A stretch of DNA of 64,000 nt, from contig NZ_CP025546.1 in the NCBI RefSeq assembly GCF_003614435.1, positions 3,410,001 to 3,474,000 on the forward strand. The letters run 5' to 3'. Both the position numbers and the translations under genes were made by a program. Source of the stretch: Mycobacterium paragordonae. GTDB lineage: Bacteria; Actinomycetota; Actinomycetes; Mycobacteriales; Mycobacteriaceae. Below are positions 2,775 to 58,146 of the stretch, in pieces. The notes below the pieces were generated by a model. It was not told the DNA's origin. It did no database searches and saw only the letters and a program-made list of their open reading frames with translations. The stretch's first letter is position 1. Every line of letters begins with the position of its first letter.

Positions 2775-2847
2775 CTCGGTGAGAGCGACGAATCACATTC
2801 CGGCACAGACGATTCAGACGTTTCCTCGGAGCAGGGGGTAGACCGCC

Positions 2848-4251: not shown

Positions 4252-4277
4252 CCGCCAAGACGAAATCGGGCATCTCG

Positions 4278-4305: not shown

Positions 4306-4311
4306 ATCGAC

Positions 4312-4635: not shown

Positions 4636-4828
4636 CGGATCCCTTTTCGCCTCTCATCAAGGCGGCGAACCTTCGCACACCCGGTATCCCCAAATCCGGA
4701 AATACGTGGAATTACGCGGAGTGTCATTGGGGCATCTGGTGGACTTCATATGAGATCCGCCGGACCTACCCGCGCAACGGCACCTCGGCGATTACCATGG
4801 CGCCCACAATGGGGACCGGAGGGAATAG

Positions 4829-6073
4829 ATGGACTTCGGGGCGTTGCCACCGGAAATCAACTCGGGACGCATGTACATGGGGGCGGGATCCGGGCCGATG
4901 CTGGCCGCCGCGGCGGCGTGGGATGCGCTGGCAGCCGAGTTGCACAGCACTGCGTCGTCCTACGGTTCGACGATCCAGGGCGTGACCGTCGGGTCATGGC
5001 ACGGCCCAGCGGCCATGTCGATGGCGACCGCAGCTGCGCCGTTCGTGGCTTGGCTCACCGAGACAGGCACCCGCGCGGAGCAAACGGCAGCGCAGGCCAA
5101 ACTCGCCGCGGGCGCATACGAGGCCGCGTTTGCGGCGACGGTGCCTCCACCGATCATCGAGGCCAACCGAAATTTGCTGATCGCGTTGATCGCCACCAAT
5201 CTGCTCGGGCAGAACACGGCCGCCATAGCCGCCACCGAGGCGCTGTACGCGGAGATGTGGGCCCAGGACGCCGGCGCCATGTACGGGTATGCGGCATCGT
5301 CGGCCGCCGCGACGGAGCTGACTCCGTTCGCCGAGCCCCCAGAGACCACCGACCCCTCGGGTGTGGGACGACAGACCGCGGCAGTCACCGAGGCAGTCGG
5401 CGCCTCCGAAGTCCAGGCTGGCCTGTCGCAGTTGATGAACGCGGTGCCCAACGCGCTGCAGACGGTGGGTCCGGCAGCGGCCGCACCGGCGGCTGCGACA
5501 CCGATCGGCTCGGTCATCGAAGCGATCAATCCCTATGTCGTAGGGATCCGGCCCTTCTTCGCCGCCATCACCGGTGCTTACAGCCCCATCGTCGGGTTCG
5601 TCCTGTTCGGGGGTTGGTGGCTCTTCGCCCTGCAGATCCTCGGCTTGTCGCAGAACGCGCCGGGGGTCGCCTCGCTGCTGAGCACCGGCGGAAAGCCGCT
5701 GGCCGGCCTGTCGCCGCTACGCGGAGGTTACGTGTCATCGGTCGCGCCGGGGACCGGCGTGGCCGGGTCGATGGGGCACTCGACTCTGGTCGGCTCGCTG
5801 TCGGTACCGCAGGGCTGGGTGACGGCCGCTCCCGTGATGAGGACCATGGCGTCAGTGCTGCCTGCCGCCAGCCCCGAGGCGCTCGCTGCGGCCCCCGCGG
5901 CGGCCGAGGGTGGCGTGTTCGGCGAAATGGCGATGGCGAGTCTGGCGGGACGCGCGCTGGCCGGCGCCACCGTGCGCACCGTCAGCAACGGCACCGCCGG
6001 AGTTTCGGGCGGCGCGACGGCCGCCGAAGACGTCGCCGCCACGGCGACCATCATCGTTATACCGGCGGACTGA
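4829..6073 (+). CDS. PPE-SVP protein, first gene of cassette copy 2
   Basis: 414-residue PPE protein, [20 protein letters not shown] at the N-terminus, with SD GGAGGG at 4818-4823 5 bases upstream of ATG. It has the full PPE domain with the SWHG turn and [17 protein letters not shown]. It then has a hydrophobic segment rich in Phe/Trp (about residues 235-275, including [13 protein letters not shown]) and the SVP signature GSLSVPQGW. The hydrophobic tail (ATIIVIPAD) parallels the tail of the PPE at 1473-2774. The two proteins are collinear throughout, indicating duplication. The 193-bp gap in front of this gene is large enough for a separate promoter. Confidence 0.92.
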
Positions 6074-6105
6074 ACGATGGTGTTCGTAACGGAAAGGCCC
6101 GGCTC

Positions 6106-7524: not shown

Positions 7525-7850
7525 AACTCCTGTCCGCGGTTCTTGCGGGCGCCGCCGCGATAGTCGGTCTGGCCGCTCCCGCCCACGGCGACCCCGCAGG
7601 TGACGACGCCGCGTTCCTTGCCGCACTGAGCAAAGCGGGCATCACCGTTCCCGATGCGAGTCGGGCCATCACGTCCGCTCAGGCGGTCTGCGGTTTGATG
7701 CGCAACGGCGAAACGGGCCTACAGGTACTCACCGACGTGCGCAAACAGAATCCCGGGCTGACCCTGGACGGCGCCGCCCTGTTCACGGCGATCGCGTCGA
7801 ACACCTACTGTCCCGAGCACCTGGGCCAATCTGAGGGCGGCTACTTCTAG
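7521..7850 (+). CDS. Small secreted DUF732-family protein, cassette copy 2
   Basis: 109-residue precursor whose ATG overlaps the stop codon of the upstream PPE gene (ATGA), so the two are probably translated together. Signal peptide MKLLSAVLAGAAAIVGLAAP with cleavage after AHG or nearby. The mature protein has DDAAFLAALSKAGI, AQAVCGLMRNGETGLQVL and a final TYCPEHLGQS, the DUF732 pattern with two cysteines positioned for a disulfide. It resembles the DUF732 protein at 4312 along its whole length and Mtb Rv1810. It probably acts in or outside the cell envelope; activity unknown. mgtC follows 87 bp downstream. Confidence 0.9.
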   Translation: MKLLSAVLAGAAAIVGLAAPAHGDPAGDDAAFLAALSKAGITVPDASRAITSAQAVCGLMRNGETGLQVLTDVRKQNPGLTLDGAALFTAIASNTYCPEHLGQSEGGYF

Positions 7851-7937
7851 CGGGAGCCCGGTTTGCCTGGCCGGCACCGAGTGTTAACCCGCTTCTGATT
7901 GGCTGCCGTATCGGTCCGCGAGGAGAGGAGTAGCGCC

Positions 7938-8696
7938 GTGCACACCCTGAGCATCGCCGACTTCGCGCTCCGCCTGGCCGTCGGCGTGGGATGCGGCGCG
8001 CTGATCGGATTGGAGCGCCAGTGGCGCGCCCGCATGGCGGGTTTGCGCACCAATGCACTTGTGGCAACCGGTGCCACGCTGTTCGTGCTCTACGCCGCCG
8101 CCACCGAGGACAGCAGCCCCACCCGGGTCGCGTCCTATGTGGTGTCCGGCATCGGGTTCCTGGGCGGCGGCGTCATCCTGCGGGAGGGCGCCAACGTCCG
8201 TGGGCTCAATACGGCGGCCACGCTGTGGTGCTCGGCCGCCGTCGGCGTGCTGGCCGCCTCCGGTCACCTGGTGTTCGCCCTGATCGCCACCGGCACGGTC
8301 GTCGCCGTCCATTTGCTGGGACGCCCGCTGGGGCGGCTCATCGACCACGACGATCCCGGCGACGACGACGAGGGACTGGAGCCCTACCTGGTCCAAGTGG
8401 TGTGCCGGCCGAAGTCAGCGAAGTATGCGCGGGCTCAGATCGTGCAGCACACCCGCAGCAACGACATCATCCTGCGCGGTATCCACACCGGCCAAGCCCC
8501 CGAGCAGGCCCCCGAACAGGCCCTGGAAAACGTTACGCTGACCGCGCACGTCCTGCTGGGCGGTCACTCCACGGCTAAACTAGCCAAGCTGGAACGGCTG
8601 GTGGCCGAGTTGTCGCTGCAGCCCGGCATCTATGCGGTGCACTGGTATGCGGGCGAGCAGACCAGCCCCATATTGCCCAGCGCCCAGCCCGAATGA
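7938..8696 (+). CDS. mgtC: MgtC family protein, Mg2+-limitation virulence factor
   Basis: 252-residue membrane protein starting at GTG 7938 after a purine-rich SD (GAGGAGAGGAG). The N-terminal half is the MgtC membrane domain with four to five helices and the family motif GALIGLERQWR near residue 20, followed by GGGVILREGANVRGLNTAAT. The C-terminal soluble domain (from about residue 145) is the ACT-like domain of mycobacterial MgtC. It carries a small tandem duplication (PEQAPEQALE) that makes the protein longer than Mtb MgtC (Rv1811). In Mtb and Salmonella MgtC is needed for growth at low Mg2+ and inside macrophages. It is the last gene of the PPE/DUF732 run. Its stop codon abuts the stop of the convergent reductase gene (TGATCA). 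Confidence 0.95.
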   Translation: MHTLSIADFALRLAVGVGCGALIGLERQWRARMAGLRTNALVATGATLFVLYAAATEDSSPTRVASYVVSGIGFLGGGVILREGANVRGLNTAATLWCSAAVGVLAASGHLVFALIATGTVVAVHLLGRPLGRLIDHDDPGDDDEGLEPYLVQVVCRPKSAKYARAQIVQHTRSNDIILRGIHTGQAPEQAPEQALENVTLTAHVLLGGHSTAKLAKLERLVAELSLQPGIYAVHWYAGEQTSPILPSAQPE

Positions 8697-9941
8697 TCAG
8701 GGTCGGGCCTGCAGCTCCGGCGCGGCGGCGGCGAGCAGGTCTGCGCGACTGGCGGTCAGCGGCGGATAGATGCGCTTGGTGTTGATCGTGCGCTTGGTGG
8801 TCTTGGCCTGATCGCCTTGTGCCACCACCATCCGATCCCATCCCTCGGTGTACACCGCGCCCGCCGGACCAAGGTCGAGAACCGTTACGTACCAAGGGAT
8901 TCGGAGTGCGAGCAACGGCTCGCCGAACAGGTCGCTGATGACGTTGTAACCCGCGTACCGGCCCATCGGCCGGCCATGCTGACACGACATGACGGACAGG
9001 TGCTCGTCGTCCATCCGGGCCGCGGCCACATCGCCGGCGGCGAACATCGCCGGCACCCCGATCACCCGCAGGTTGTCGTCGACCGCTACCCGCCCCAACC
9101 GGTCATGGGCCACCGGCAATTGCTCGGTCAGCGCACTGGCCCGCATGCCGGCACACCACACCACGGTGGCGGTGTCGAGCTGCTCGCCCGAGGTCAGCGA
9201 CACGCCGGCGGGTCCGACGGCCGTCACACCGACATCGGTGCGGCACTCAACTCCGTTGTCCGACAAGGCTTTCTGGATCACCGGCCGCGCCGAGGCGCCC
9301 ATGTCCGAGCCGACCAGCGGATTACGGTCCACCAGCACCACGCGCGGCGTCATGCCCAGTTCGCGCAGCCGGTGCGGCAGTTCGCAGGCGGTTTCGATCC
9401 CGGTCAGCCCGGCCCCGACCACCACCACGGTGGCCGCGGCCGGGCCGCCGGACAGCGTTTCCAGGTGGCGGCGCAAGCGCATGGCGCCGTCGTAGGTGTC
9501 GACATCGAATCCGAATTGCCGCAGCCCCGGAAGGTCGGGCTTGTTGACCCGGCTGCCGGCCGCGAGCACCAGGCGGTCGTAGCCGTACGCTGCGCCGGCC
9601 GACGTCGTGACGGTGCGGGCGTCGACGTCGATACGCGTCACCTCGGCGGTGACGTGCGCGACGCCGACGGGGTCGAGCAGCTCCGCGAGCGGGATGCGGC
9701 AGCTGCTCAGGTCGTCCTCGTAGTTGCGCACCCGGATGTCGTGGAACGGTTGGGCGCTGAGCACCGTGACCTCCACGCTCCCCGCGGGAACCCCGAGCTC
9801 GTCGAGGCGCCGCGCAGCGCCCAGCGCGGTCCACAGCCCGGCAAAACCGGACCCGACGATCAGGACCCGGGCCGGCCCGTCAGCACGTCGCGGATCTGGC
9901 CCAGGGTCATCTTGGCCTTGTGGCCGGGAAGGAGCATCCAC
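8697..9941 (-). CDS. NADH dehydrogenase-like FAD/NAD(P) oxidoreductase (Rv1812c type)
   Basis: 414-residue pyridine-nucleotide-disulfide oxidoreductase of the type II NADH dehydrogenase group. FAD-binding GxGxxG is near the start (VLIVGSGFAGLWTALG), the NAD-binding motif in the middle (VVVVGAGLTGIETACELP), and the second FAD motif near the end (FAAGDVAAARMDDE). Mtb Rv1812c is the evident orthologue. It lacks an obvious membrane anchor. The only canonical in-frame start is ATG 9941, which gives about 25 extra residues before the FAD motif and overlaps the upstream esterase gene by 82 bp. The Mtb protein begins right at the FAD motif, so the true start is uncertain. It probably moves electrons from NAD(P)H to a quinone or other acceptor; the substrate is unknown. 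Confidence 0.85.
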   Translation of the reverse strand: MDAPSRPQGQDDPGPDPRRADGPARVLIVGSGFAGLWTALGAARRLDELGVPAGSVEVTVLSAQPFHDIRVRNYEDDLSSCRIPLAELLDPVGVAHVTAEVTRIDVDARTVTTSAGAAYGYDRLVLAAGSRVNKPDLPGLRQFGFDVDTYDGAMRLRRHLETLSGGPAAATVVVVGAGLTGIETACELPHRLRELGMTPRVVLVDRNPLVGSDMGASARPVIQKALSDNGVECRTDVGVTAVGPAGVSLTSGEQLDTATVVWCAGMRASALTEQLPVAHDRLGRVAVDDNLRVIGVPAMFAAGDVAAARMDDEHLSVMSCQHGRPMGRYAGYNVISDLFGEPLLALRIPWYVTVLDLGPAGAVYTEGWDRMVVAQGDQAKTTKRTINTKRIYPPLTASRADLLAAAAPELQARP

Positions 9942-28176: not shown

Positions 28177-28212
28177 CTACCCGGCGGCGTAAACTGGTAG
28201 CCGCATCGACCT

Positions 28213-28431
28213 CGCGCGGGAGAGTTCCGTGGCCGCCAGCTACGGACGCCGAAGGAGCAATACCTCTCCGTCAACCTCTCAGGCACCCGGACCGCCCGAG
28301 CTAACGATGCCTCTGGAAAGCGGTGTCGACCTTGCCGGTCGCCACCCGCCGATGGGGAAAGGCGCCGCACGCGCCGAATCTCTCAGGCGCCCGACGCACG
28401 GGTGAAGACAGAGGGAGAGGGCCCCGTCTTC
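28213..28431 (+). ncRNA. Tandem glycine riboswitch upstream of gcvB
   Basis: Two consecutive glycine-aptamer cores are seen. The first has GCGGGAGAG (from 28216), CGCCGAAGGAGCAA (28247-28260) and CTCTCAGGCAC (28276-28286). The second has GGAAAG (28315-28320), CGCCGATGGGGAAAGGCGC (28347 on) and AATCTCTCAGGCGC (28377-28390). The closing stem of aptamer two is CCTCTG (28310-28315) with CAGAGG (28409-28414). An alternative stem GAAGAC (28404-28409)/GTCTTC (28426-28431) overlaps that strand and could be the expression platform. The conserved AGGAGCAA and CTCTCAGG elements are diagnostic of gcvT/glycine riboswitches. In Mtb a small ORF (Rv1831) is annotated in this place; I see no credible protein here. 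Confidence 0.92.
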
Positions 28432-45908: not shown

Positions 45909-46313
45909 GTGTCGTCAGCGCCTGAGCAGGAATTCGTTGCACCCTTCGACAGTGAGCTGGGTCTGCAGTTCACCGAACTGACTCCCGATGGCGCCCGCGC
46001 GCAACTCGAGGTCAAGCCGAAACTGCTGCAGCCGATGGGCATCGTCCACGGCGGCGTCTACTGCTCGATGATCGAGAGCATGGCCAGCGTGGCCGCCTAC
46101 ACCTGGTTCAACACCCAGGGCGCCGGCGGAAACGTGGTCGGCGTCAACAACAGCACCGACTTCCTGCGCGCCATCAAGTCGGGAACGGTGTACGGCAAGG
46201 CCGAGCCCATCCACCGTGGCCGCCTGCAGCAGCTGTGGCTGGTCACCATCACCGACGACGACGACCGGTTGGTGGCGCGCGGCCAGGTACGCCTGCAGAA
46301 CCTGGAGGCCTGA
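45909..46313 (+). CDS. Hotdog-fold thioesterase (PaaI/YbgC-like, Rv1847 type)
   Basis: 134-residue hotdog protein from GTG 45909. The active-site helix region HGGVYCSMIESMASVAAY is the PaaI-type motif, followed by NNSTDFLRAIKSGTVYGKAE. It should hydrolyse an acyl- or aryl-CoA. A TAGACA element six bases before the GTG suggests a leaderless transcript. Mtb Rv1847 is the orthologue. The sRNA terminator 35 bp upstream isolates it from the mrsI-like promoter. Confidence 0.88.
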   Translation: MSSAPEQEFVAPFDSELGLQFTELTPDGARAQLEVKPKLLQPMGIVHGGVYCSMIESMASVAAYTWFNTQGAGGNVVGVNNSTDFLRAIKSGTVYGKAEPIHRGRLQQLWLVTITDDDDRLVARGQVRLQNLEA

Positions 46314-46314
46314 C

Positions 46315-47826
46315 TCACCGCTCCGGGATGGCGTCGGCATACGGCGCATCGCTCTTGGTGTGCGCCCGGGTACTCGCCATGTAGAGCAGTCCGAAGCCGA
46401 TCACCAGTCCCGCCATCAGCAACACCACATAGTTGTCGTACCAGGGCGCGTCGGGGGACCGGGGCCAGCAGATGTTCACGATCGCCGCGACGCCGTACGC
46501 CAACGCCCCGACGTTGATCGGCAATCCCCATCGGCCCAACCGGTATTTCCCCGAAGGCTTCCAGCCCTTGGACCGGGCGCGCAGGGCGGCCAGCACCACC
46601 ATCTGGAACCCGAGGTACACCCCCACGGTGCCGAAGCTGACCAGTTTGTTGAGCGGGTGCTCGGAGACGATGGTCCCGATGATCAATCCCGCCGGGATGA
46701 TGACAGCGGCCAGCAGCGAGTACGGCGGCACGTGCCGCTTGTGGTCGAACCGCGCCAACAACCGAGAACCCAGGATCATGTCGTCACGGCCGTAGGAGAA
46801 GATCAGCCGGCTGGCCGCGGCCTGCAGGCTCAGCGCGCAGGACACGAACGAGATGAGCACGATGCCGAGCACCACCCGGGACCCGAGGTCGCCGAAGGCC
46901 GAACTCAGGACGGTCGAGATCGGGTTGGTGTCCTCGCCGCGGATCACCGCGCCGAAGTCGGTGACCGACAGGACCAGGCTCAGGCAGACGAACGTCGATG
47001 CCGCACCGCCGATGTAAATCGTGCGACGCATCGCCTTCGGTATCTGAATCCCCGGGTTGCGGACCTCCTCGGCGACGTCGCCACACGCCTCGAACCCGAA
47101 AAACTGGTAGAGACCGATGAGGCTGGCGGCGAGAAACGCGTACAGAAAGCTGTGTTCACCCTGGGCGCCGAAGCTGTGGAACAGCACTCCCAGCCCGTGG
47201 TGCCGGTGGGAGATCAGCAACCAGATGCCGACCACCAGCGCGCCGATGAGTTCGGCGGTGAAACCGAAGATCGCGAAATAGCCCAGTATCTTGGTCCCGG
47301 TCAGGTTGATCAGCGTGGCGACCGCCAAAACCGCCAGCGCACAATAGATCTTGGCCTGCGCCGTCGGACGGAATCCGACCATGGCCGCCAGGTAGGGACC
47401 CGCGCCGAACGCCGCGTCCGCGATGAGCGCCAACAGGCAGAACATGTACACCCAGCCGGTCATCCACGCCCATTTGCGGCCCCACAGCCGGCGCGCCCAC
47501 GGGTAGACGCCGCCGGCCACCGGGAACTGTGCGACCACTTCGCTGAACACCAGCGCGACGAGCATCTGGCCGGCGCCGACGATCAGCAGGCTCCAGATCA
47601 TCGCCGGACCGGCGGTGGCCAGCGCGAACGCGAACACCGTGTAGATGCCGACGACGGGCGACAGGTAGGTGAAGCCCAGCGAGAAGTTCGCCCACGGGCT
47701 CATGTCCCGCCGGAACTCCGAGGAGAAACCGAGCGCCTCGAGTTGGGCCTGATCCGCATCCTCAGCCGGTGGCGGGCCGACCGGCACCTCGCGTTCTTGG
47801 GGTTTCCCCGTACCAGCAAACACCAC
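46315..47826 (-). CDS. APC-superfamily amino acid/polyamine permease
   Basis: 503-residue membrane transporter with about 12 hydrophobic helices. APC features include SPWANFSLGFTYLSPVVGIY before helix 1, VAQFPVAGGVYPWARRLWG around helix 2, and FFGFEACGDVAEEVRNPGIQ, the conserved loop of the family. The start is GTG 47826 with GGAGGG eight bases upstream; GTG 47823 is equally possible. It most resembles APC permeases for amino acids, polyamines or choline-like amines; the substrate cannot be read from sequence. It lies 60 bp downstream of two coupled PPE genes and is not present here in Mtb. A 6-bp hairpin (47862-47879) sits in the gap. Confidence 0.88.
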   Translation of the reverse strand: MVFAGTGKPQEREVPVGPPPAEDADQAQLEALGFSSEFRRDMSPWANFSLGFTYLSPVVGIYTVFAFALATAGPAMIWSLLIVGAGQMLVALVFSEVVAQFPVAGGVYPWARRLWGRKWAWMTGWVYMFCLLALIADAAFGAGPYLAAMVGFRPTAQAKIYCALAVLAVATLINLTGTKILGYFAIFGFTAELIGALVVGIWLLISHRHHGLGVLFHSFGAQGEHSFLYAFLAASLIGLYQFFGFEACGDVAEEVRNPGIQIPKAMRRTIYIGGAASTFVCLSLVLSVTDFGAVIRGEDTNPISTVLSSAFGDLGSRVVLGIVLISFVSCALSLQAAASRLIFSYGRDDMILGSRLLARFDHKRHVPPYSLLAAVIIPAGLIIGTIVSEHPLNKLVSFGTVGVYLGFQMVVLAALRARSKGWKPSGKYRLGRWGLPINVGALAYGVAAIVNICWPRSPDAPWYDNYVVLLMAGLVIGFGLLYMASTRAHTKSDAPYADAIPER

Positions 47827-47885: not shown

Positions 47886-49220
47886 CTACTTGTGGGCCGC
47901 CTCCTGGATCAGCGTCGCGGCCGTGCGCTTGAGCACGTCCCGCTGCCGCGTCACATCGGCCACCGCTCGCCGGAGTTGGTTGAGCTCGTCCCGTTCGCCG
48001 AGCGGACCGTCATCAAGCCCGTCCTGCACCAACTCCGGCTCCCGCGCGATTGCGGGGATCACCTTCTGCCGCGACCGGGAACGCGGCTGGTCGCCTCTCG
48101 GCGCATTGACCACGCTGGCCACCGGACCGCCGAACCCGGACATGCCGCCGTAGAAGGGCGCGACCGAGCCCGGCGGTGCGCCATCGAGGCCGGCCGCGGG
48201 CAGTGCCGTTGCCGCCAGCCGGACCGCCGGCGTCGTGCCCCAGGACGGGGGCACGGACAACTTGCCCACATTGACCGCCTCACCGAGGCCGGCCGATGTC
48301 CCGGTGGCGGCGCTGCCCGCCGGGGCGCCGGTGGCCGGGGTGGTGACGTCCGAGGCCGCCGCGGCCGCCGGCGCGCTCAGCGAATCGGCGAGCGGGTTGA
48401 ACGCCACCGCGACCATCGGCGCGGCCGTCAGCAGCACCCCGGATATGGCGAAATTCAAACCGTAGGAAAGGATTCCGAGGCCCAGGGTGTCCTCGCTGGC
48501 CTGTTCGAACGCCTGAACGGGATAGCTGTTGAAGAAGTCGAGCAGCGCGTTGGATCCGGGAAATGTACCGGTGGAGAGCTGATTGAGCAGATCGGGGACG
48601 GCGGCCAGTTGGGCGGCGGTCGACTGGGTCGGGGCGGCCGCGGCCTGACTGACCGCCGCGGCTTGCGTGGCGGTTCCGGTCGGGTTGGTGTTCTGTTGCG
48701 GTGTGGTGAACGGCGACAACGTCGTGGCCGCCGCGGAGGCGCCGGCATAGCCGAGCATCGCGGCGGCATCCTGGGCCCACATCTGGGCGTATTGCGCCTC
48801 CGTGGCCGCGATCGCCGCCGCGTTCTGCCCCAGGATGTTGGTGTCCACCAATGCCGTCAGCAACGCCCGGTTCACCTCGATCTGGGCCGGCGGCACGGTT
48901 GCGGCGAACGCGGACTCGTAGGCCGCGATGGCCGCGCCCATCTGCCCGGCCGTCTGCTCGGCCTGGGCTGCGGTGGCAGTGATCCAGGACGCATAGGGCG
49001 CCGCCGCGGCCGCCATCGACGCCGACGACGGGCCCACCCACGGTCCGCCGGTCAGCTCGGCGATCACCGCGGAATACGAAGCCGCGGTCGCCTTCAACTC
49101 CGCAGCCAACGACGACCAGGCCGCCGCCGCGGTCACGAGTGACCCCGGGCCCGCGCCGGCATACATCCGGCCGGAATTGATCTCCGGTGCCAGCGCCGCG
49201 AAATCCAGGACCGGGATCAC
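47886..49220 (-). CDS. PPE-SVP protein with coiled-coil tail (second of a coupled pair)
   Basis: 444-residue PPE protein from GTG 49220, whose start overlaps the stop of the PPE gene upstream (GTGA). N-terminus [20 protein letters not shown] is unusual: the motif is Ala-Pro-Glu rather than Pro-Pro-Glu. The PPE domain and SVP region (GKLSVPPSW) are otherwise normal. The last 45 residues (ERDELNQLRRAVADVTRQRD) form a predicted coiled coil after a basic segment (RSRSRQK), as in the upstream PPE. The open frame continues 59 codons upstream of GTG but without conserved residues. The permease gene follows 60 bp later. Confidence 0.88.
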   Translation of the reverse strand: MIPVLDFAALAPEINSGRMYAGAGPGSLVTAAAAWSSLAAELKATAASYSAVIAELTGGPWVGPSSASMAAAAAPYASWITATAAQAEQTAGQMGAAIAAYESAFAATVPPAQIEVNRALLTALVDTNILGQNAAAIAATEAQYAQMWAQDAAAMLGYAGASAAATTLSPFTTPQQNTNPTGTATQAAAVSQAAAAPTQSTAAQLAAVPDLLNQLSTGTFPGSNALLDFFNSYPVQAFEQASEDTLGLGILSYGLNFAISGVLLTAAPMVAVAFNPLADSLSAPAAAAASDVTTPATGAPAGSAATGTSAGLGEAVNVGKLSVPPSWGTTPAVRLAATALPAAGLDGAPPGSVAPFYGGMSGFGGPVASVVNAPRGDQPRSRSRQKVIPAIAREPELVQDGLDDGPLGERDELNQLRRAVADVTRQRDVLKRTAATLIQEAAHK

Positions 49221-50557
49221 AGCATCGCTTCCTTGATCAACCGGGCTGCCGCGTCGCGTTCGGTCGCCAATTCGTTGAGCTCCCTGCGCAATTGAGCCAT
49301 CTCGTCGCGTTCGTGCTCGCTCAGAGCGCTGGCCACGGTTGGCGGCCGCTCCGGCGTGGCCGGGCCCGCCGACCGCCCACCGGTTTCGGTGACCCACGGC
49401 GGGAGCATCTTGCTGCGCGCGGCCGCGCGGGAGGCGGGTTCGCCGGTGCCGCGCGGCGCGTTCACCCAGCTGCCCACCGGCGGGATGCCGAAGCCGGAGC
49501 CGACGCCGGCGGCTTCTGCCTGCGGCGCGCCGGCGGCGCCGGCGGTCGGCAGGGCAGTGGCGGCGAGGCGGATATTCGGGTTCTCGACCCAGCTCTGCGG
49601 CACCGACAGTTTGCCGACTGTGGCCGCCTCGCCGACGCCGGCGGCCACCGGACCCTCCTGCGCACCCGATCCCACCAGTGCCGGGCCGGTCGCGCCACCA
49701 GACACGTCCGAAGCCGCGGCGGCGGCCGACGGCGGCAACGCCAGCGGGTACAGGGAGACGAAGAACGGTGTGATGCCGGAAGCCACGAATGCGAAGCCGC
49801 TGAATTCCGTGGCGACGTTGCCCACATCGGTGCCAAATCTGTTGATCGCCATGCCCAGCGGACTCGTCGCGAAGGTGTGCAGCAAGGTGAGCGGGTCGAT
49901 GGATCCGGGGGCCGCCAACCCCTGCAGCAGATTAGGTACCGCCGCCATCTGGGCCAGCGTCGACTGGGCGGAGCCGGCGGGCGCAGCCGCGGCTTGACCG
50001 ACCGCCGCCTCCTGCGTCGCCGATCCGGACGGGTTGGTGTTCTGCGGCGGCGTCGCAAACGGGGCCAGGGTCGTTGCCACCGCCGAGGCGGCGGCGTAGC
50101 CGAACATCGCCGCGGCATCCTGCGCCCACATCTGGGCGTACTGCGCCTCGGTGGCTGCGATCGCCGCCGTGTTCTGGCCCAGGAGGTTGGTGGCCACCAG
50201 CGCCGCCAGCAGTGCCCGGTTCACCTCGATCTCCGCCGGGGGCACCGTGGCTGCGAACGCGGCCTCATAGGCCGCCACCGCCGACTTCAACTGGGCGGCG
50301 GTCTGGCCGGTCTGGGCGGCCGTCGCACTCATCCAGGACACATAGGGGACTGCGGCCGCGGTCATCGAGGTGGACGACGGGCCGACCCACGGCCCACCGG
50401 TGAGCTCCGCTATCACCGCGCGGTAGGCCGCCGCGGTCGAGTCCAACTCGGCCGCCAGCGCCTCCCACGCGGCTGCCGCAGCGACCAGCGGCCCCGAGCC
50501 GGCGCCCGCGTACATCCGCCCGGAGTTGATCTCCGGCGGCAACACCGCAAAATCCAC
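49217..50557 (-). CDS. PPE-SVP protein with coiled-coil tail (first of a coupled pair)
   Basis: 446-residue PPE protein, [20 protein letters not shown] at the N-terminus, full PPE domain with PWVG and [20 protein letters not shown] region GKLSVPQSW, then a basic segment (SRAAARSKML). The C-terminal coiled coil is EHERDEMAQLRRELNELATE. It is a tandem paralogue of the downstream PPE (collinear along the whole length). No PE gene lies beside it. It is separated from the ureohydrolase gene by 439 bp containing a terminator, so it probably has its own promoter. Confidence 0.92.
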   Translation of the reverse strand: MDFAVLPPEINSGRMYAGAGSGPLVAAAAAWEALAAELDSTAAAYRAVIAELTGGPWVGPSSTSMTAAAVPYVSWMSATAAQTGQTAAQLKSAVAAYEAAFAATVPPAEIEVNRALLAALVATNLLGQNTAAIAATEAQYAQMWAQDAAAMFGYAAASAVATTLAPFATPPQNTNPSGSATQEAAVGQAAAAPAGSAQSTLAQMAAVPNLLQGLAAPGSIDPLTLLHTFATSPLGMAINRFGTDVGNVATEFSGFAFVASGITPFFVSLYPLALPPSAAAAASDVSGGATGPALVGSGAQEGPVAAGVGEAATVGKLSVPQSWVENPNIRLAATALPTAGAAGAPQAEAAGVGSGFGIPPVGSWVNAPRGTGEPASRAAARSKMLPPWVTETGGRSAGPATPERPPTVASALSEHERDEMAQLRRELNELATERDAAARLIKEAML

Positions 50558-50996
50558 CGTTTAAGCCCCCTAACAAGCGGCCCGGTTTGAGCGCTGAGAA
50601 GGCGTGCAATCGCCGGGCCGAACTAATAGTCGGTCCGCTGGCTGAAACCGCACTGGTTAATAGCTGGTAATTTGCTGGTAATCAAGTATTTCGTTTGCTG
50701 TACTGCCATTTCGTCGTCGGGCGCGACAACCGGACGATGACCGGTCGGCGGTGACGGCGGCGAAATAAGCTGAAGCCAAAAGCCCTGTTAAAGGCCGCCG
50801 AAATACGGTTCCTGACTGGAGTATTGACCGAGCAACGAAATGCCGCCGGGGGCGGAGCCTATTCGGCCCCGCCCCCGGCGATTGAAGAGATGTTCGTGGC
50901 ATTTCCGCGCCCATCGGCTGGCTTCACATGCATAGCCAGAGTGCGCTACAACTGAGCTTTTGATGTTGCCCTGCGTCTATCAGCAAGCTCTCTGTG
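50558..50996. other. 439-bp intergenic region between ureohydrolase and PPE pair
   Basis: No gene is evident. The ureohydrolase-proximal part holds a strong hairpin (see terminator). The PPE-proximal part (about 50600-50720) is AT-rich and includes a near-repeat GCTGGTAAT at about 50662 and 50675; it is the likely PPE promoter. No guanidine-III core was seen here. Confidence 0.6.
50845..50879 (-). terminator. Probable terminator downstream of the ureohydrolase gene
   Basis: A 15-bp GC-rich stem (50845-50859 with 50865-50879, one mismatch) and a five-base loop. On the - strand it is followed by GGCATTTCGTTG, a weak T-rich tail. It should end transcription from the riboswitch-controlled gene before the PPE pair. 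Confidence 0.65.
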
Positions 50997-52163
50997 TCAG
51001 TCCGCGAAGGGTCCCCAGGCGTGCCGTTTGAGCGACGCCGGCTTCTTGCCGAGTTTTCCGGCCCGCACCATGACGGCCAGACTGTCCAGGATGATCCGGC
51101 TGCTCATTAGCGCCGTCTGCTCTGCCCAGTCATACGGTGGTGAGCACTCCACCACCTCGATGCCGTCGAGACCGGGCTCGGAGATCATGCGAATCAGGTT
51201 CAGCGCTTCGCGGGGCAGCAGACCACCCGGTTCGGGCCAGCCGGTGCCGGGCACGAATCCCGCGTCGATCACGTCGATGTCGAAGGACAGGTACACCGCC
51301 TTGGCGTCCTTCCACGCCGTCTCCAGCGCGATCTCGGCGACCTTCTCCAGGCCGACTCTTTCGATGTCACCGACCGTGATCACGGTGCTGCCGCGCTGGC
51401 GGCCCACCTGAACGCCGGCGCGCGGAGCCTGCCACCCGCCGATCCCGATTTGCACCAGGTTGGTGGCCGGGGCGTTCTTGATGTTGGTGGCGTGGAACCA
51501 CGGCGTGGTGTGCATCCGCTCATCGAGATCGGTTTCCTGGGTGTCGACGTGGCGGTCGAAGTGGATGATGCCGACGTTGCCGTCCAGGTACGGGGCCAGC
51601 CCGCGCACGGTGGGGAAGCCGATCGAGTGATCGCCGCCGAGTACGACCGGGAACACGCCTTTCGAAACCACGTGGGCCATGGCCTGGCTGATCTGGTCGA
51701 ATGACTTCTCGATGTTGGCGGGGATGGTCAGCACGTCGCCGATGTCGACGATGTTCAGCTGTTCCCGTAGGTCGACTCCGAGTTCGTAGCAGTAGGTGCC
51801 GAACAGGTTGGTGGACCTGCGAATCCCGGTGGGGCCGAAGCGGGTTCCAGGCCGGTAGGTGGTTCCGGCATCCAGCGGCGCCCCGAAGACGGCCACTTCG
51901 GCGTCCGCGACGTCATTCACATCCTCGAGGAACGGCGCCTTCAGGAAGGTTCCGCGTTCCCCGGCGAAGTGCGGCAGCTCGCCGCGCGCGAAGGTCGACA
52001 GCGTGCGGTCGTTGATCGTCGGCGCGGCTTCCAACCCATGGGAGAGACACCGGTCGATTTCTTCGCGCAGCCGGCGGGTGGGCAGTTCGGCTTCGGCCTC
52101 CTGCGCCCACTTGCCCTCACGGTTGGGTATGTCGGCCTGTCCAGCGAATGGATTGAACACCAC
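50997..52163 (-). CDS. Ureohydrolase (agmatinase family), probable guanidine hydrolase
   Basis: 388-residue arginase-superfamily protein from GTG 52163, chosen for the well-spaced GAGAGGA; GTG 52184 would add 7 residues. Metal ligands are present: GGDHS (His179), FDRHVD (Asp203, His205, Asp207) and FDIDVID (Asp295, Asp297). Agmatinases usually have DAH-x-D and DxDxxDP; here the first is DRHVD and the last Pro is Ala (DAGFVPGTG). The chain is about 80 residues longer than typical agmatinases, with an N-terminal extension. A guanidine-III riboswitch lies about 100 bases upstream, so expression should respond to guanidine. Guanidine hydrolase (urea plus ammonia) is therefore more likely than agmatinase. 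Urease genes start 300 bp away on the other strand. Absent at this place in Mtb. Confidence 0.85.
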   Translation of the reverse strand: MVFNPFAGQADIPNREGKWAQEAEAELPTRRLREEIDRCLSHGLEAAPTINDRTLSTFARGELPHFAGERGTFLKAPFLEDVNDVADAEVAVFGAPLDAGTTYRPGTRFGPTGIRRSTNLFGTYCYELGVDLREQLNIVDIGDVLTIPANIEKSFDQISQAMAHVVSKGVFPVVLGGDHSIGFPTVRGLAPYLDGNVGIIHFDRHVDTQETDLDERMHTTPWFHATNIKNAPATNLVQIGIGGWQAPRAGVQVGRQRGSTVITVGDIERVGLEKVAEIALETAWKDAKAVYLSFDIDVIDAGFVPGTGWPEPGGLLPREALNLIRMISEPGLDGIEVVECSPPYDWAEQTALMSSRIILDSLAVMVRAGKLGKKPASLKRHAWGPFAD

Positions 52164-52266
52164 TGCTTCCTCTCGTCGATTCACGGCGGAGGATGCCTTG
52201 GTTACCGGCCTTTAAGCGGATAAATACCAGGTTGTTTCGGTGAGCCGGCGCGCCAGGCATCCAGTA

Positions 52267-52309
52267 CTCACCGTCTTGTCGCTGTCCGGGTACGGCGAAC
52301 TCGTCCGGG
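52267..52309 (-). ncRNA. Guanidine-III (ykkC-III) riboswitch
   Basis: The - strand reads CCGGACGAG, then TTCGCCGTACCCGG, then ACAGCGACAAGACGGTGAG. This matches the short guanidine-III consensus almost base for base (CCGGACGAG, CGCCGTACCCGG, GACAAGACGG). Pairing that makes the pseudoknot is kept: CCGG with CCGG, and TTCGCCGT with ACGGTGAG (8 pairs, two of them G-U). It lies in the 5' leader of the ureohydrolase gene. Between it and the SD an inverted repeat GGATGCCT/AGGCATCC spans about 70 bases and could act as expression platform. Confidence 0.88.
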
Positions 52310-52477
52310 CGGCCCCGGGGTGGCACGCCTGGTTTCAAACTACCGACCGCCACGGCGTCCGCAAGCCAGATCGGCCCGAGTTAGGTTGGAGATCGCTGTG
52401 AGTCTCCTTGGTGCTTCCGTGGCGTTCTGCTGGTCCAGGATGCGGTCATCGGCGCAAGCGTGGCAGGATCCGAGGAC

Positions 52478-52780
52478 ATGCGTCTGACGCCGCACGAGCA
52501 AGAGCGACTGCTGTTGTCCTACGCCGCCGAACTGGCCCGTCGCCGACGGGCCCGGGGGCTGCGGCTGAATCATCCTGAGGCCGTTGCGGTGATCACCGAC
52601 CACATCCTGGAGGGAGCGCGCGACGGCCGCACCGTGGCCGAACTGATGGCCAGTGGGTGTGATGTGCTGAGCCGCGACGACGTAATGGAGGGAGTGCCCG
52701 AGATGCTCGACGACGTCCAGGTGGAAGCGACGTTCCCGGACGGCACCAAGCTGGTCACCGTCCACCACCCGATCGCATGA
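52478..52780 (+). CDS. ureA: Urease gamma subunit
   Basis: 100-residue subunit from ATG 52478 ([20 protein letters not shown]), the standard UreA start; an in-frame start at 52460 would add 6 residues. Conserved [20 protein letters not shown] and [11 protein letters not shown] are present. The stop overlaps the ureB ATG (ATGA). First gene of the ureABCFGD operon, divergent from the guanidine-riboswitch gene. Mtb Rv1848 is the orthologue. Confidence 0.96.
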
Positions 52781-53091
52781 TTCCCGGCGAAATCCTTTAT
52801 GGCGCCGGTGATATCGACATCAACGCGGGAGCGCACCGCATCGACATCGAGATCGTCAACACCGGTGACCGCCCGGTCCAGGTCGGTAGTCACGTCCACC
52901 TGCCGCAGGCCAACGCGGCGTTGTCCTTCGATCGCACCACGGCCTTCGGCTACCGGCTCGATGTTCCCGCGGCCACCGCGGTGCGCTTCGAACCTGGTGT
53001 GCCACAGGTTGTCTCACTCGTGCCACTCGGCGGCCGGCGCGAGGTGCACGGGTTGACCCTGGATCCCCCCGGCCGGCTGGACCCGGCATGA
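52777..53091 (+). CDS. ureB: Urease beta subunit
   Basis: 104-residue subunit beginning [18 protein letters not shown], with the family segments [16 protein letters not shown] and VRFEPG. It overlaps ureA and ureC by ATGA at both ends. The three subunits assemble into the (UreABC)3 enzyme. Mtb Rv1849 is the orthologue. Confidence 0.96.
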
Positions 53092-54809
53092 CCCGACTGT
53101 CCAGGGAGCGCTACGCGCAGCTGTTCGGTCCCACCACCGGCGACCGGATCAGGCTGGCCGACACCGACCTGCTGGTCGAGATCATCGAAGACCGCAGCGG
53201 GGGACCGGGGCTGGCCGGCGACGAGGCGGTGTTCGGCGGCGGCAAAGTGTTGCGGGAATCGATGGGGCAGGGCCGCACCACCCGGGCACAGGGCGCGCCC
53301 GACACCGTCATCACCGGCGCGGTGATCATCGACTACTGGGGAATCATCAAGGCCGACATCGGGATTCGCGACGGGCGCATCGTCGGAATCGGCAAGGCCG
53401 GCAATCCCGACATCATGCACGGCGTGCACCGGGAGCTGGTGGTCGGCCCGTCTACCGAGATCATCGGCGGCAACGGCCGTATCGTCACCGCGGGCGCGAT
53501 CGACTGCCATGTGCACCTGATCTGCCCGCAACTGATGGAAGAGGCACTGGGCTCCGGCATCACCACGATCATCGGCGGCGGCACCGGCCCGGCCGAGGGC
53601 AGCAAGGCCACCACCGTCACCCCGGGATCCTGGCATCTGGCCAGAATGCTCGAAGCCCTCGACGGCTGGCCGGTCAACTTTGCCCTGCTGGGCAAGGGCA
53701 ACACCGTCAGCTCCGAGGGTTTGTGGGAGCAATTGCGTGGCGGCGCATCGGGTTTCAAACTGCACGAGGACTGGGGCTCCACGCCGGCGGCCATCGACAC
53801 ATGTCTGACCGTCGCCGACGCCGCGGGAGTACAGGTCGCACTGCACACCGACACCCTCAACGAGATGGGCTTCGTGGAGAACACGCTGGCGGCCATCGCC
53901 GGCCGGTCGATTCACACCTACCACACCGAGGGGGCGGGCGGCGGGCACGCACCGGACATCATGACCGTTGCGGCGCATCCGAATGTGTTGCCCAGCTCCA
54001 CCAACCCGACCCGGCCGCACACCGTCAACACCCTTGACGAGCACCTCGACATGCTGATGGTGTGCCACCACCTCAACCCGGCCGTGCCCGAGGACCTGGC
54101 CTTCGCGGAGAGCCGGATTCGGCCGTCGACGATGGCGGCCGAGGATCTGCTGCACGATCTGGGCGCAATCTCGATGATCGGCAGCGACTCCCAGGCGATG
54201 GGCCGCATCGGCGAGGTGGTGTTGCGCACGTGGCAGACCGCGCATGTGATGAAGCGCCGCCGCGGGGCCCTGCCCGGCGATGGCGATGCCGACAACGTGC
54301 GGGCGCGCCGCTACGTCGCCAAGTACACCATCTGTCCGGCCGTCGCCCACGGCATGGACCACCTGATCGGCTCGGTGGAAGTCGGCAAGTTGGCCGACTT
54401 GGTGCTCTGGGAGCCGGCGTTCTTCGGAGTGCGCCCGCACGCCGTGATCAAGGGCGGGGTAATCGCCTGGGCCGCAATGGGTGACGCGAATGCGTCCATC
54501 CCGACCCCGCAGCCCGTGCTGCCGCGGCCGATGTTCGGCGCCGCCCCGGTGACCGCGGCCGCATCCTCCGTGCACTTCGTCGCACCGGCGGCCCTGGAAG
54601 CCGGGCTGGCCGACCGGCTGAGGATCAACCGGCCGCTGGTGCCGGTCGGCGATGTGCGCGCGGTCGGCAAGGCCGAACTGCCCCTGAACGACGCGATGCC
54701 GCGCATCGAGGTGGAACCCGACACATTTACCGTCCGCATCGACGGTGAGGTCTGGCAACCCGAGCCGCCCGCCGAACTTCCAATGGCGCAACGGTATTTC
54801 CTGTTCTGA
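53088..54809 (+). CDS. ureC: Urease alpha (catalytic) subunit
   Basis: 573-residue nickel amidohydrolase. Nickel ligands His141 and His143 lie in DCHVHLICP. The Lys to be carbamylated is Lys224 in GFKLHEDWG. The flap Cys is Cys326 in MVCHHLNP. All are intact, so the enzyme should be active, hydrolysing urea to ammonia and carbamate. It could take urea from the neighbouring ureohydrolase. Mtb Rv1850 is the orthologue. Confidence 0.97.
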
Positions 54810-55444
54810 TGGCATCGCTCGCGACGCTTCTCGCTCTTGCCGACTCCCGGCTGCCCACCGGCGCACACGTGCACTCCGGTGGTCTCGAAGAGGCGGTCAG
54901 CAGCGGGCTGGTGACGAATCTGCGCACCCTGGAGGCGTTTCTCACCCGACGGATCCGCACCCACGGGTTGGTCACCGCATCCATTGCCGTCGCGGTCCAG
55001 CGCGGGGACCTCACCACCGAGGACGCCGATCTCGAAACCGACGCCCGCACACCGTCTCCCGCGGCTCGCGAGGCGTCCCGCAAGCAGGGCCGCGGTCTGA
55101 CCCGGCTGGCCCGACTGGTCTGGCCCGATCCCGGCTGGGACCTGCTGGGCCGTCAACCGCACCTGGCGGTGGCCGCCGGGCGCGTCGGCGCACGCTGCGG
55201 TCTGCCCGCCGAACACAACGCGCTGCACGTCGTCTACACGACGATGACCGGGTCGGCGACGGCCGCTCAGCGTTTGCTTGCCCTCGACCCGGCGGAAGTG
55301 GCCGCGCTGACGATCCGGCTGTCCGCCCTCTGTGAGGACACCGCCGCCGCGGCGACTAGAGGACTGGCCGAGCTCTCCGACCCGCTACTGGACACGCTGG
55401 CACAACAGCACGCCCAACGCGAGCGCCCCCTGTTCGCCTCCTGA
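54809..55444 (+). CDS. ureF: Urease accessory protein UreF
   Basis: 211-residue helical accessory protein; the ATG shares a base with the ureC stop. Conserved N-terminal [20 protein letters not shown] is typical of actinobacterial UreF. It acts with UreG and UreD in GTP-dependent nickel delivery and Lys carbamylation. Mtb Rv1851 is the orthologue. Confidence 0.93.
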
Positions 55445-55454
55445 AAGGTCAACC

Positions 55455-56120
55455 ATGCCAACGCATTCCCACACACACAGCCACACCGAGCGGCCCAGGC
55501 GGGTCCGCCGGCCGGGTGAGCCGCTGCGCATCGGGGTCGGTGGCCCGGTCGGCTCGGGCAAGACGGCGCTCGTGGCGGCGCTGTGCCGCCAGCTGCGCGA
55601 CGAACTCTCGGTGGCGGTGCTGACCAACGACATCTACACCACCGAGGATGCCGACTTCCTGCGCCGCCACGCCGTGCTGCCCGACGACCGGATCGCCGCC
55701 GTGCAGACGGGAGGCTGCCCGCACACGGCAATCCGCGACGACATCACCGCCAACCTCGACGCGATCGACGACCTGCAGGCCGCCCACGAACACCTGGACC
55801 TGATCCTGGTGGAGTCCGGCGGCGACAACCTGACGGCCACCTTCTCCTCCGGCCTGGTCGATGTGCAGATCTTCGTCATCGATGTGGCCGGGGGTGACAA
55901 GGTGCCACGCAAAGGCGGACCCGGTGTCACCTATTCGGATCTGTTGGTGGTCAACAAGACTGACCTCGCTCCGCTGGTCGGCGCCGACCTCACGGTAATG
56001 GAGCGCGACGCCGAGGCCGTGCGCGACGGCCGTCCCACGGTGCTGCAGTCGTTGACCGACGACCCGGCGGCCGGCCAGGTGCTGACGTGGGTCCGCGACC
56101 AACTGGCGGCCGCCCGCTGA
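55455..56120 (+). CDS. ureG: Urease accessory GTPase UreG
   Basis: 221-residue GTPase from ATG 55455. The His-rich start ([12 protein letters not shown]) probably binds nickel. P-loop GPVGSGKT is at 30-37, and the nickel-binding CPH motif is in [25 protein letters not shown] and NKTDLAP are also conserved. Start is 10 bp after ureF. Mtb Rv1852 is the orthologue. Confidence 0.96.
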
Positions 56121-56758
56121 TGGAATCGCGGGTGCTGCTGGTGGCTGCACGCAATCGGTTGCCGCGCCTGCAGTGGCAGGGTGGTATCCAGGCCAGGTGC
56201 ACCAATCCCGATACGGTGCACCTGATTTCGACCGCCGCGATCCCGCTGGGCGGCGACCGCATCGACATCCGGGTGATCGTCGAAGACGGTGCCCGGCTTC
56301 GGGTGCGCAGCGCCGCCGCCACTGTGGCGTTGCCCGGCACCGAGACCGACACCTCACATACGCATTGGAAGATCGACGTCACCGGGGAGCTGGACCTGGA
56401 TCTGCAGCCAACCGTCGTGGCCGCCGCAGCCCGGCATGTCTCGACGGTGAACCTGCGCCTCCACGAAGACGGCCGGGTGCGGCTGCGCGAACGCGTCCAG
56501 ATCGGCCGATGCAACGAGGGCCAGGGCTTCTGGTCGGGATCCATTCGGGCCGACCGGCATTCCCGACCCATGCTGCGGCACCGGCTGGAACTCGGCGCCG
56601 GGTCTCCGGCCGACGACGAACTGTCCGCACCCCGGGCCATGGTCAGCGAATTATGCTATCCCGCAACATGTTCCGAATTCGAACCCGGCTCGACGGTGCT
56701 GGCGCTGGCCGGCGGAGGGACGCTGAGTACCTGGCAGGCCGATCGGCTGACCGGCTAA
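56120..56758 (+). CDS. ureD: Urease accessory protein UreD (UreH)
   Basis: 212-residue protein from ATG 56120, whose first base is the last base of the ureG stop. Beta-rich, with the UreD-type GGDRIDIRVIVEDGARLRVR and ATVALPG segments. Forms the UreD-UreF-UreG complex that activates urease. It overlaps the convergent ndh gene by 4 bp. Mtb Rv1853 is the orthologue. Confidence 0.9.
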   Translation: MESRVLLVAARNRLPRLQWQGGIQARCTNPDTVHLISTAAIPLGGDRIDIRVIVEDGARLRVRSAAATVALPGTETDTSHTHWKIDVTGELDLDLQPTVVAAAARHVSTVNLRLHEDGRVRLRERVQIGRCNEGQGFWSGSIRADRHSRPMLRHRLELGAGSPADDELSAPRAMVSELCYPATCSEFEPGSTVLALAGGGTLSTWQADRLTG

Positions 56759-58146
56759 CTGGCCTTTCGGGTGACGGCCCCGGAATTCTGCGCCTCGGCC
56801 GCCGCTTCGGCGAGTTGTTCCAGGCGCGTTCGCGCGAACGCCTGCTGGTCGGTGATGGTCAGCTGTCCCCGCCGGGTGCTCAGGAACGTCACCGTCCACG
56901 ACAGCAGCGTGGCCACCTTGGTCTTGAACCCGACCAGGTACACCAGGTGCAGCACCAGCCACATCAGCCAGGCGATGAACCCGCTGAACTCCATCGGCCC
57001 GATCTTGGCGACCGCGGAGAAGCGCGACACCGTTGCCATCGAGCCCTTGTCGAAGTACTGGAACGGCTCACGCTCGGCAGCGTCGGCCCCGGCAAGCTCG
57101 GCCTTGATGTTGTTGGCGACGTATTTCCCGCCCTGGATGGCGCCCTGCGCCACGCCGGGCACGCCTTCGACCGCGGCCATATCACCGACGACGAAGACGT
57201 TCGGGTGCCCCGGGATCGACAGGTCGGGTAGCACCTGCACCCGGCCGGCCCGGTCGAGTTCAACGTCGGACTGCTCGGCGAGGTCGCGGCCCAGCCTGCT
57301 CGCGGCGACCCCGGCCGACCACACCTTGCAGGCGGATTCGATGCGCCGCTCGGTGCCGTCGGCGTCCTTGACCGTGATGCCGTTGCGGTCCACGTCGGTG
57401 ACCATGGCACCCAATTGGATTTCGACGCCCAGTTTCTCCAACCGTGCGGCGGCCCGCTCACCCAGCTTTTCGCCGAACGGCGGCAGCACCGCGGGCGCGG
57501 CATCGAGCAGGATCACCCGTGCCCTCGTCGAATCGATATGCCGGAAAGCACCTTTCAGGGTGTGCTCGGCCAATTCGGCGATCTGCCCGGCCATCTCGAC
57601 ACCGGTCGGACCGGCACCGACGACGGTGAAGGTGAGCAGCTTGGCGCGGCGTTCCGGGTCGCTCGACCGTTCCGCCTGCTCGAAAGCGCTCAGGATCCGG
57701 CCCCGCAACTCCAGGGCGTCGTCGATGGTCTTCATGCCTGGGGCGAATTCGGCGAACTGGTCGTTGCCGAAGTAAGACTGGCCGGCGCCGGCCGCGACGA
57801 TCAGGCTGTCGTACGGGCTCTCGTAGGTGTGGCCGAGCAACTCCGAGATGACGACCTTGCGGGCCAGATCGATGTGCGTGACATTGCCCAGCAGCACCTG
57901 CACGTTGCGCTGCTTACGCAGGATGACGCGGGTGGTCGGCGCGATCTCGCCCTCGGAGATGATGCCGGTCGCCACCTGGTACAGCAAAGGCTGGAAGAGG
58001 TGGTGGGTGGTGCGGGCGATCAGCTTGATGTCGACGTCGGCATGCTTGAGCTTCTTTGCCGCCGTGAGCCCGCCGAACCCCGATCCGATGATCACGACGC
58101 GATGCCGTTGACGTGGTTCAGCTGTGGATTCTTGTTTGGGGCTCAT
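56755..58146 (-). CDS. ndh: Type II NADH dehydrogenase
   Basis: 463-residue NDH-2. FAD motif VVIIGSGFGGLTAAKKL, NAD motif TVVGAGPTGVEMAGQIAELA, and VFVVGDMAAVEGVPGVAQGA. A C-terminal membrane-binding region (SGFIAWLMWLVLHLVYLVGF) is present. It passes electrons from NADH to menaquinone without pumping protons. SD AGGAG precedes ATG 58146. A CRP-like site lies about 100 bp upstream. Mtb Rv1854c is the orthologue. Confidence 0.96.
   Translation of the reverse strand: MSPKQESTAEPRQRHRVVIIGSGFGGLTAAKKLKHADVDIKLIARTTHHLFQPLLYQVATGIISEGEIAPTTRVILRKQRNVQVLLGNVTHIDLARKVVISELLGHTYESPYDSLIVAAGAGQSYFGNDQFAEFAPGMKTIDDALELRGRILSAFEQAERSSDPERRAKLLTFTVVGAGPTGVEMAGQIAELAEHTLKGAFRHIDSTRARVILLDAAPAVLPPFGEKLGERAAARLEKLGVEIQLGAMVTDVDRNGITVKDADGTERRIESACKVWSAGVAASRLGRDLAEQSDVELDRAGRVQVLPDLSIPGHPNVFVVGDMAAVEGVPGVAQGAIQGGKYVANNIKAELAGADAAEREPFQYFDKGSMATVSRFSAVAKIGPMEFSGFIAWLMWLVLHLVYLVGFKTKVATLLSWTVTFLSTRRGQLTITDQQAFARTRLEQLAEAAAEAQNSGAVTRKAS

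Follow-up and report, generated by a model that had tools for sequence, protein, structure and literature searches.

A riboswitch-led block with a predicted guanidine hydrolase gene at the urease locus of slow-grower-type mycobacteria, a likely guanidine-assimilation module

Described guanidine systems and the locus of Mycobacterium paragordonae

In Actinobacteria, ykkC-III (guanidine-III) RNAs were reported before emrE and speB genes in 2010 (PMC2864571), and in Mycolicibacterium they were noted near arr genes in 2021 (PMC8492726). Sll1077 was described as a guanidinase in 2021, along with the control of its analogues by riboswitches, and riboswitch-linked "agmatinases" include a guanidinase (PMC8390497). 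The nickel dependence of GdmH followed in 2022, as cited in PMC12186494, and growth of comammox bacteria on guanidine in 2024 (PMC11410670).

The window, that is, the whole 64,000-nucleotide stretch of M. paragordonae DNA analysed here (NZ_CP025546.1, positions 3,410,001 to 3,474,000), resembles the Synechocystis GdmH (Sll1077) operon in the clade of its enzyme (60% identity), in the guanidine riboswitch ahead of the gene and in urease as the finishing enzyme (PMC12186494, PMC8390497). However, the Synechocystis operon carries a guanidine-I riboswitch together with nickel-chaperone and ABC-transporter genes, whereas the window has guanidine-III only, with urease, PPE and APC permease genes instead, and the HypB match of the genome (248.6 bits) lies outside the cluster, 0.85 Mb away. 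The Nitrospira inopinata system shares a 62% identical enzyme and an APC-superfamily permease, but it differs in its guanidine-I riboswitch, which directly precedes the APC permease and guanidinase genes, in having urease elsewhere in the genome and in lacking PPE genes (PMC11410670). The accessible text of that paper reports no nickel chaperone genes beside the riboswitch, and the window has only the urease ones; its permease gene comes last in the block, behind a PPE pair. The actinobacterial ykkC-III report places the same RNA class ahead of a speB (agmatinase) gene, while its accessible part leaves urease, PPE genes, permease and rearrangement unmentioned (PMC2864571).

An earlier note, made from the DNA letters, knew of no description of this arrangement in mycobacteria. 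We likewise found no mycobacterial guanidinase or cassette described in the open-licence literature, which is weak evidence with most subscription papers outside it, and the novelty is narrower than claimed because the ykkC-III/speB pairing (2010) and a riboswitch-linked guanidinase (2021) had been published. That note also overlooked a larger unit, comprising a PPE pair, a permease gene, three layouts and remnants. The features of the locus are as follows.

52265..52329, minus: Guanidine-III riboswitch aptamer (RF01763, 52.1 bits, E 9.3e-9)
52161..52264, minus: leader from aptamer to start codon, conserved across 22 leaders
52168-52174 and 52189-52193, minus: Shine-Dalgarno GAGAGGA and complementary TCCTC in the leader
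52269-52274 with 52183-52188, minus: ACGGTG and CGCCGT, candidate long-range helix
52256-52262 with 52191-52197, minus: GGATGCC and GGCATCC, candidate long-range helix continued
50997..52160, minus: gdmH, predicted GdmH-type guanidine hydrolase, 387 aa from GTG 52160 (PF00491; identity to 9fek and 7esr)
50843..50881, minus: 17-bp hairpin 3' of gdmH, possible terminator, tail CATTTCGTTG
50654..50677, minus: conserved 24-nt box 5' of the PPE pair, possible control site
49217..50557, minus: first PPE gene, PPE-SVP type (PF00823, PF12484)
47886..49220, minus: second PPE gene, PPE-SVP type (PF00823, PF12484), start overlapping the first PPE stop by 4 nt
46315..47826, minus: APC-superfamily permease (PF13520; best NCBIfam match TIGR03428, 214.7 bits)
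45909..46313, plus: thioesterase-family gene (PF03061), bordering the urease cluster in relatives
52460..52780, plus: ureA, urease gamma, likely start about 52478 (NF009712 and TIGR00193 above cut-off)
52777..53091, plus: ureB, urease beta (NF009682 and TIGR00192 above cut-off)
53088..54809, plus: ureC, urease alpha (NF009685, 1165.7 bits, above cut-off)
54809..55444, plus: ureF, urease accessory protein (PF01730, 68.1 bits)
55332..56120, plus: ureG, nickel-insertion GTPase, ORF start too early (TIGR00101, 280.8 bits)
56087..56758, plus: ureD, urease accessory protein (PF01774, 60.7 bits)
56755..58146, minus: putatively ndh-like gene at the opposite border of the urease cluster, conserved in place in relatives

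The urease genes and the accessory genes ureG, ureF and ureD that the earlier note had read beside gdmH were borne out, ureA, ureB, ureC and ureG by NCBIfam and ureD and ureF by Pfam. So was the divergent spacing of some 300 bp: the likely ureA start, taken as the point where the family match begins, lies about 318 bp from the gdmH start. A match to RF02514 (5_ureB_sRNA) at 53257-53536(-), antisense within ureC, recurs in the six scanned loci that contain ureC; it was rejected as a genuine sRNA and probably reflects similarity to urease coding sequence.

Aptamer, leader and enzyme

The minus-strand guanidine-III motif recognized in the earlier note is matched by the RF01763 covariance model at 52.1 bits, above the cut-off of 36. 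The E value of 9.3e-9 refers to a cmscan of 9 kb against the 4227 families of Rfam 15, and that for the whole window is 6.6e-8. This is the single RF01763 match across the 7.2 Mb genome (G000), and no further guanidine riboswitch was found within the window at the curated cut-off. Across 30 aligned copies, the aptamer core (CCGGACGA, CGTACCCGG, AAGACG) does not vary, and the window aptamer has the core nucleotides of guanidine-III as well as ACGA, an invariant element of ykkC-III (PMC2864571). Elsewhere in the window, two RF00504 matches form a tandem glycine riboswitch (28207-28421, plus strand).

Guanidine-III is predicted to be a translational ON switch (PMC12186494). TCCTC is paired with the Shine-Dalgarno sequence in nearly all 22 leaders (RNAalifold), which proves little because these columns hardly vary. 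A candidate long-range helix, which could compete with the aptamer, pairs the aptamer's 3' strand and GGATGCC with CGCCGT, a downstream copy of the aptamer strand, and GGCATCC. In the alignment, 95.4% of its cells are paired, versus 34-53% for slid partners, and none of 500 shuffles had as high a covariation score. Two pairs are changed on both sides, which 39 of 500 shuffles reach, the pair-type count is reached by 224 of 500, and the helix is partly broken in L051, L053 and L129. When the aptamer can fold, 19 of 22 leaders have a mostly paired ribosome-binding site (mean free probability <0.5), and all 22 do when it is blocked. This in-silico block gave no consistent release of the site among the 22 leaders, and in L052, L057, L065 and L129 it left the site less free, the opposite of an ON switch. 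A thermodynamic switch model was set aside on these folds.

The open reading frame downstream is as the earlier note described it, except for its start, which is most likely GTG at 52158-52160 and gives 387 rather than 395 aa, because GAGAGGA lies at 52168-52174 and the near-identical relative L095 has ATG at the aligned position. The product belongs to the arginase family (PF00491) and is the sole match to that family in the genome. Its metal motifs had been called deviating; DRHVD and DIDVIDAG are real, but all six positions taken as metal ligands (H178, D202, H204, D206, D294, D296) are retained, and DRHVD is found in both solved guanidinases too.

Judged on its sequence, gdmH is a gene for a GdmH-type guanidine hydrolase, the group to which the earlier note had likened it. 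The best solved-structure matches are 9fek, the N. inopinata guanidinase (508 bits; PMC11410670), and 7esr/7oi1, the Synechocystis guanidinase (494 bits), with a guanidinobutyrase third at 159 bits. The corresponding identities are 61.8% to 9fek, 59.9% to 7esr and 32.8% to guanidinobutyrase (33-34% to guanidinobutyrase and proclavaminate amidinohydrolase). In a small tree (19 sequences, two outgroups), the protein groups with the known guanidinases, apart from other ureohydrolases. The residues that call a guanidinase are Thr105, His222, Trp313 and Glu344 in N. inopinata numbering (PMC11410670), and window GdmH has T101, H217, W308 and E338 at these positions. We aligned 81 proteins, 80 of them taken one per locus and the last from the window: the Thr is present in all 81, and the His, Trp and Glu in 80 each, the exceptions being one Asn for His and one gapped row each for Trp and Glu. 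Both solved guanidinases have Ala where guanidinobutyrase has Pro.

The enzyme might instead act on agmatine, guanidinobutyrate or another guanidino compound, as its general arginase-family match and a near miss of the NCBIfam agmatinase model (165.1 of 174.3 bits) could suggest. We consider this highly improbable: the protein scores under every NCBIfam cut-off and groups with the two solved guanidinases, T101 and W308 match guanidine-specific residues that are S and T in guanidinobutyrase and proclavaminate amidinohydrolase, and a guanidine riboswitch stands ahead of the gene. No guanidine/urea carboxylase was found in the genome at the TIGR02712 cut-off.

Layouts, distribution and history of the block

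Twelve window proteins were compared with 80 loci by tblastn. Of the 20 loci whose gdmH is of the window type (L049-L067, L095), 18 have urease genes, and the remaining L054 and L059 run into a contig end and have the urease-flanking thioesterase gene. Only 2 of the 60 other loci (L126, L127) have urease genes, and chance placing of urease near gdmH was rejected on this comparison. L126 and L127 are distant relatives, so the linkage is either old or of more than one origin. In L127 (Dactylosporangium), the urease cluster ureABCFGD (3377-9074) immediately precedes a distant gdmH (66% identity) and runs in the same direction, apparently a linkage separate from the mycobacterial one. We term the 20 window-type loci slow-grower type on the strength of their species names, M. 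scrofulaceum and M. szulgai among them.

A riboswitch precedes gdmH in all 20 slow-grower-type loci. In each of the 17 loci complete from gdmH to the permease, the window included, one or more PPE genes and the APC permease gene follow 3' of gdmH on the same strand. Two full PPE genes, some recovered by tblastn after a motif search had missed them, are found in 15 of the 17; L058 has one, and in L055 the first is shortened. Where both PPE genes are full (15 loci), they share a 4-nt overlap in 13.

Three layouts can be distinguished. In layout a (the window, L051, L052, L053, L057, L095), the block lies between the thioesterase gene and ureA and points away from urease. Layout c (L055, L058, L060-L063, L066) has the same place with the direction of urease, and 4-63 nt separate the permease stop from the ureA start, as measured with longest-ORF starts. 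In layout b (L050, L056, L065, L067), the block stands beside ureF, opposite to urease; in L050, L065 and L067, ureG and ureD lie across it, so that the urease operon is split between ureF and ureG, and the L056 locus is too short to reach that side. Among partial loci, L049, L064 and L141 match layout b and L054, L059 and L144 match layout c.

When the permease tree is rooted at its midpoint, the layout b loci fall into a single clade (support 1.0) and those of layout c, apart from L066, into another (0.996), with layout a spread over the tree. Layout a may therefore have come first; b would then stem from a single move and c from one or two flips. The gdmH tree has too little depth to settle this history. 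Remnants were seen in 4 of 20 further stretches. L129 (8852-9207) retains a Guanidine-III riboswitch and gdmH codons 4-66 adjoining ureA, and L130 (8506-9379) has a Guanidine-III riboswitch, C-terminal pieces of gdmH and the last 40 permease codons before ureA. PPE and permease pieces lie in the ureA-thioesterase interval of L136, and a permease piece in the ureD-ndh interval of L148. Seven stretches (L137-L140, L145-L147) have urease, with gdmH, PPE and permease not found by tblastn at E <= 1e-5. Among the 14 ureC loci without an intact gdmH, 7 have the thioesterase gene adjoining ureA, 4 have remnants and 3 (L141, L142, L144) are from cassette genomes cut at contig ends; L141-L144 are all parts of cassette genomes.

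We also surveyed 218 genomes of the genus, partly from the same strains as the loci (e.g., L095 is G047), with limits of E <= 1e-100 for gdmH, 1e-200 for ureC and 0.001 for RF01763. gdmH was found in 52 genomes, RF01763 in 123 (121 above cut-off) and ureC in 151, most urease-bearing genomes being without gdmH. A riboswitch lies directly 5' of gdmH in 44 of the 52, and in G059 the gene is a fragment; in seven (G224, G200, G028, G199, G002, G044, G127), none was seen by an RNA search whose strict filters may miss weak RF01763 copies. In sixteen genomes, gdmH shares 91% identity or more with that of the window, and all 15 testable ones have the riboswitch; compared by eye, gdmH is <10 kb from ureC in 14 of them, and in G058 and G257 the two are on separate contigs. 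The other 36 gdmH genomes show 54-87% identity and a riboswitch in 29. A permease at least 78% identical, a threshold chosen after viewing the list, occurs in 17 of the 218 genomes, namely all 16 with window-type gdmH and G007, which has no gdmH or ureC match and whose contig (L131) ends inside a PPE gene. Four genomes have 75-77% permease relatives away from gdmH.

Fast-grower-type loci offer a separate observation. In 6 of 10 scanned with Rfam (L069, L068, L076, L078 and L079, at about 7600-8000, and L072, at 3598-3892), a Guanidine-I riboswitch stands back to back with the Guanidine-III of gdmH, so that two riboswitch classes for one ligand share one divergent promoter region. The Guanidine-I of L069 precedes a sodium/solute-symporter-like gene (match under cut-off).

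Control, uptake and proposed function

In the window, gdmH is probably the only target of the riboswitch, and the PPE-permease genes probably have their own promoter, because gdmH is followed by a 17-bp hairpin and the PPE genes are preceded by a conserved box. The box, about 97-120 nt 5' of the first PPE gene, has a mean column identity of 0.85 over a core of 25 columns (15 of the 17 loci aligned) and has a single match, in the window as in the whole genome, at up to 3 mismatches. None of the PPE genes in a run at the window start (1-7200; genome matches C1:3409640-3417197) has it. The shared strand, the 4-nt overlaps and the 4-63 nt to ureA in layout c would fit a single transcript, with the riboswitch controlling the whole block and, in layout c, urease as well. 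We judge this rather unlikely, given the 440-780-nt gap 3' of gdmH, the box and the window hairpin, which none of 100 shuffles reaches, although a hairpin reached by at most 5 of 100 shuffles is present in only 3 of 15 loci and absent from the close relative L095. The same three features set back a riboswitch-led operon running down to the permease or urease.

Both PPE genes are of the SVP type, with PF00823 and PF12484 above cut-off. PPE proteins have been reported as mycomembrane nutrient transporters, and the cargo named for PPE51-type channels in the accessible text comprises glucose, glycerol, trehalose and other disaccharides, and heme, with no nitrogen compound (PMC12607722). The two PPE proteins of the block match each other at 61%, the next one in the genome reaches 53%, and no PE partner gene was noticed in the gap 3' of gdmH when ORFs of the window and 11 loci were viewed by eye. 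The prospect is not far from even that these genes have nothing to do with guanidine and are members of a mobile, recombining family that helped the block to move: the first PPE protein has 43 matches in the genome at E <= 1e-40, the genes have their own upstream box, and one is shortened in L055 and the pair is reduced to a single gene in L058. Against this, PPE genes sit between gdmH and the permease in all 17 complete loci and all three layouts, and the 4-nt overlap is kept in 13 of 15. A dedicated mycomembrane guanidine channel is a possibility that we favour somewhat less. The block would then be a complete guanidine pathway from outer membrane to ammonia. Slow growers would have built it at the urease locus out of three parts, namely a riboswitch-led hydrolase, a channel and a permease, and it would since have been inverted, relocated and, repeatedly, lost.

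The permease scores 214.7 bits against TIGR03428 ("permease, urea carboxylase system"), whose cut-off is 740; a permease beside gdmH in L104 reaches 598.8 bits, also under it. L132-L135, picked for their 77% permease relatives, have neither gdmH nor urease. In L132, the relative is near P450-like and glutamine-synthetase-like genes (matches under cut-off), surroundings reminiscent of cyclic-amine degradation.

Taken together, the riboswitch, gdmH, the PPE pair and the permease gene form a block that slow-grower-type mycobacteria keep in their urease cluster and that is likely a guanidine-assimilation module. This reading, already put forward in the earlier note, remains the best one of a locus in which the aptamer precedes a urease-linked gene of guanidine-hydrolase type. 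Guanidine would cross the mycomembrane via the PPE pair and the inner membrane via the APC permease, and its binding to the aptamer would increase translation of gdmH. Using nickel that may come from the neighbouring UreG or the distant HypB, GdmH would split guanidine into urea and ammonia, and urease would split the urea into ammonia and CO2. Several findings count against a module: the 7 of 52 gdmH genomes without a riboswitch upstream in the strict-filter search, the lower TIGR03428 score of the permease than of its L104 counterpart, the 77% relative without gdmH and urease, the lack of ribosome-binding-site release on aptamer blocking, the many urease genomes without gdmH and the G007 permease without gdmH.

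It is also conceivable, though unlikely, that detoxification comes first, with GdmH clearing harmful guanidine and urease lying close by for reasons of history or of nickel insertion in common, rather than of nitrogen supply. Exporters are also among the targets of guanidine riboswitches (PMC12186494), and gdmH of other mycobacteria has a riboswitch and no urease nearby. Yet permease, PPE genes and urease accompany gdmH in 17 of 17 complete loci, and in layout c all of these genes are codirectional, the permease stop being 4-63 nt from ureA.

Such a module predicts a nitrogen source that we have not found described for mycobacteria, and it would give the urease of these species a substrate made in the cell. 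With two PPE proteins beside a pathway for a named small molecule, channel function becomes testable with a simple cargo; if the channel reading is true, this would be the first PPE pair with a nitrogen nutrient and the first mycobacterial guanidine pathway. The flips, moves and remnants show the rearrangement of a metabolic block around its partner operon.
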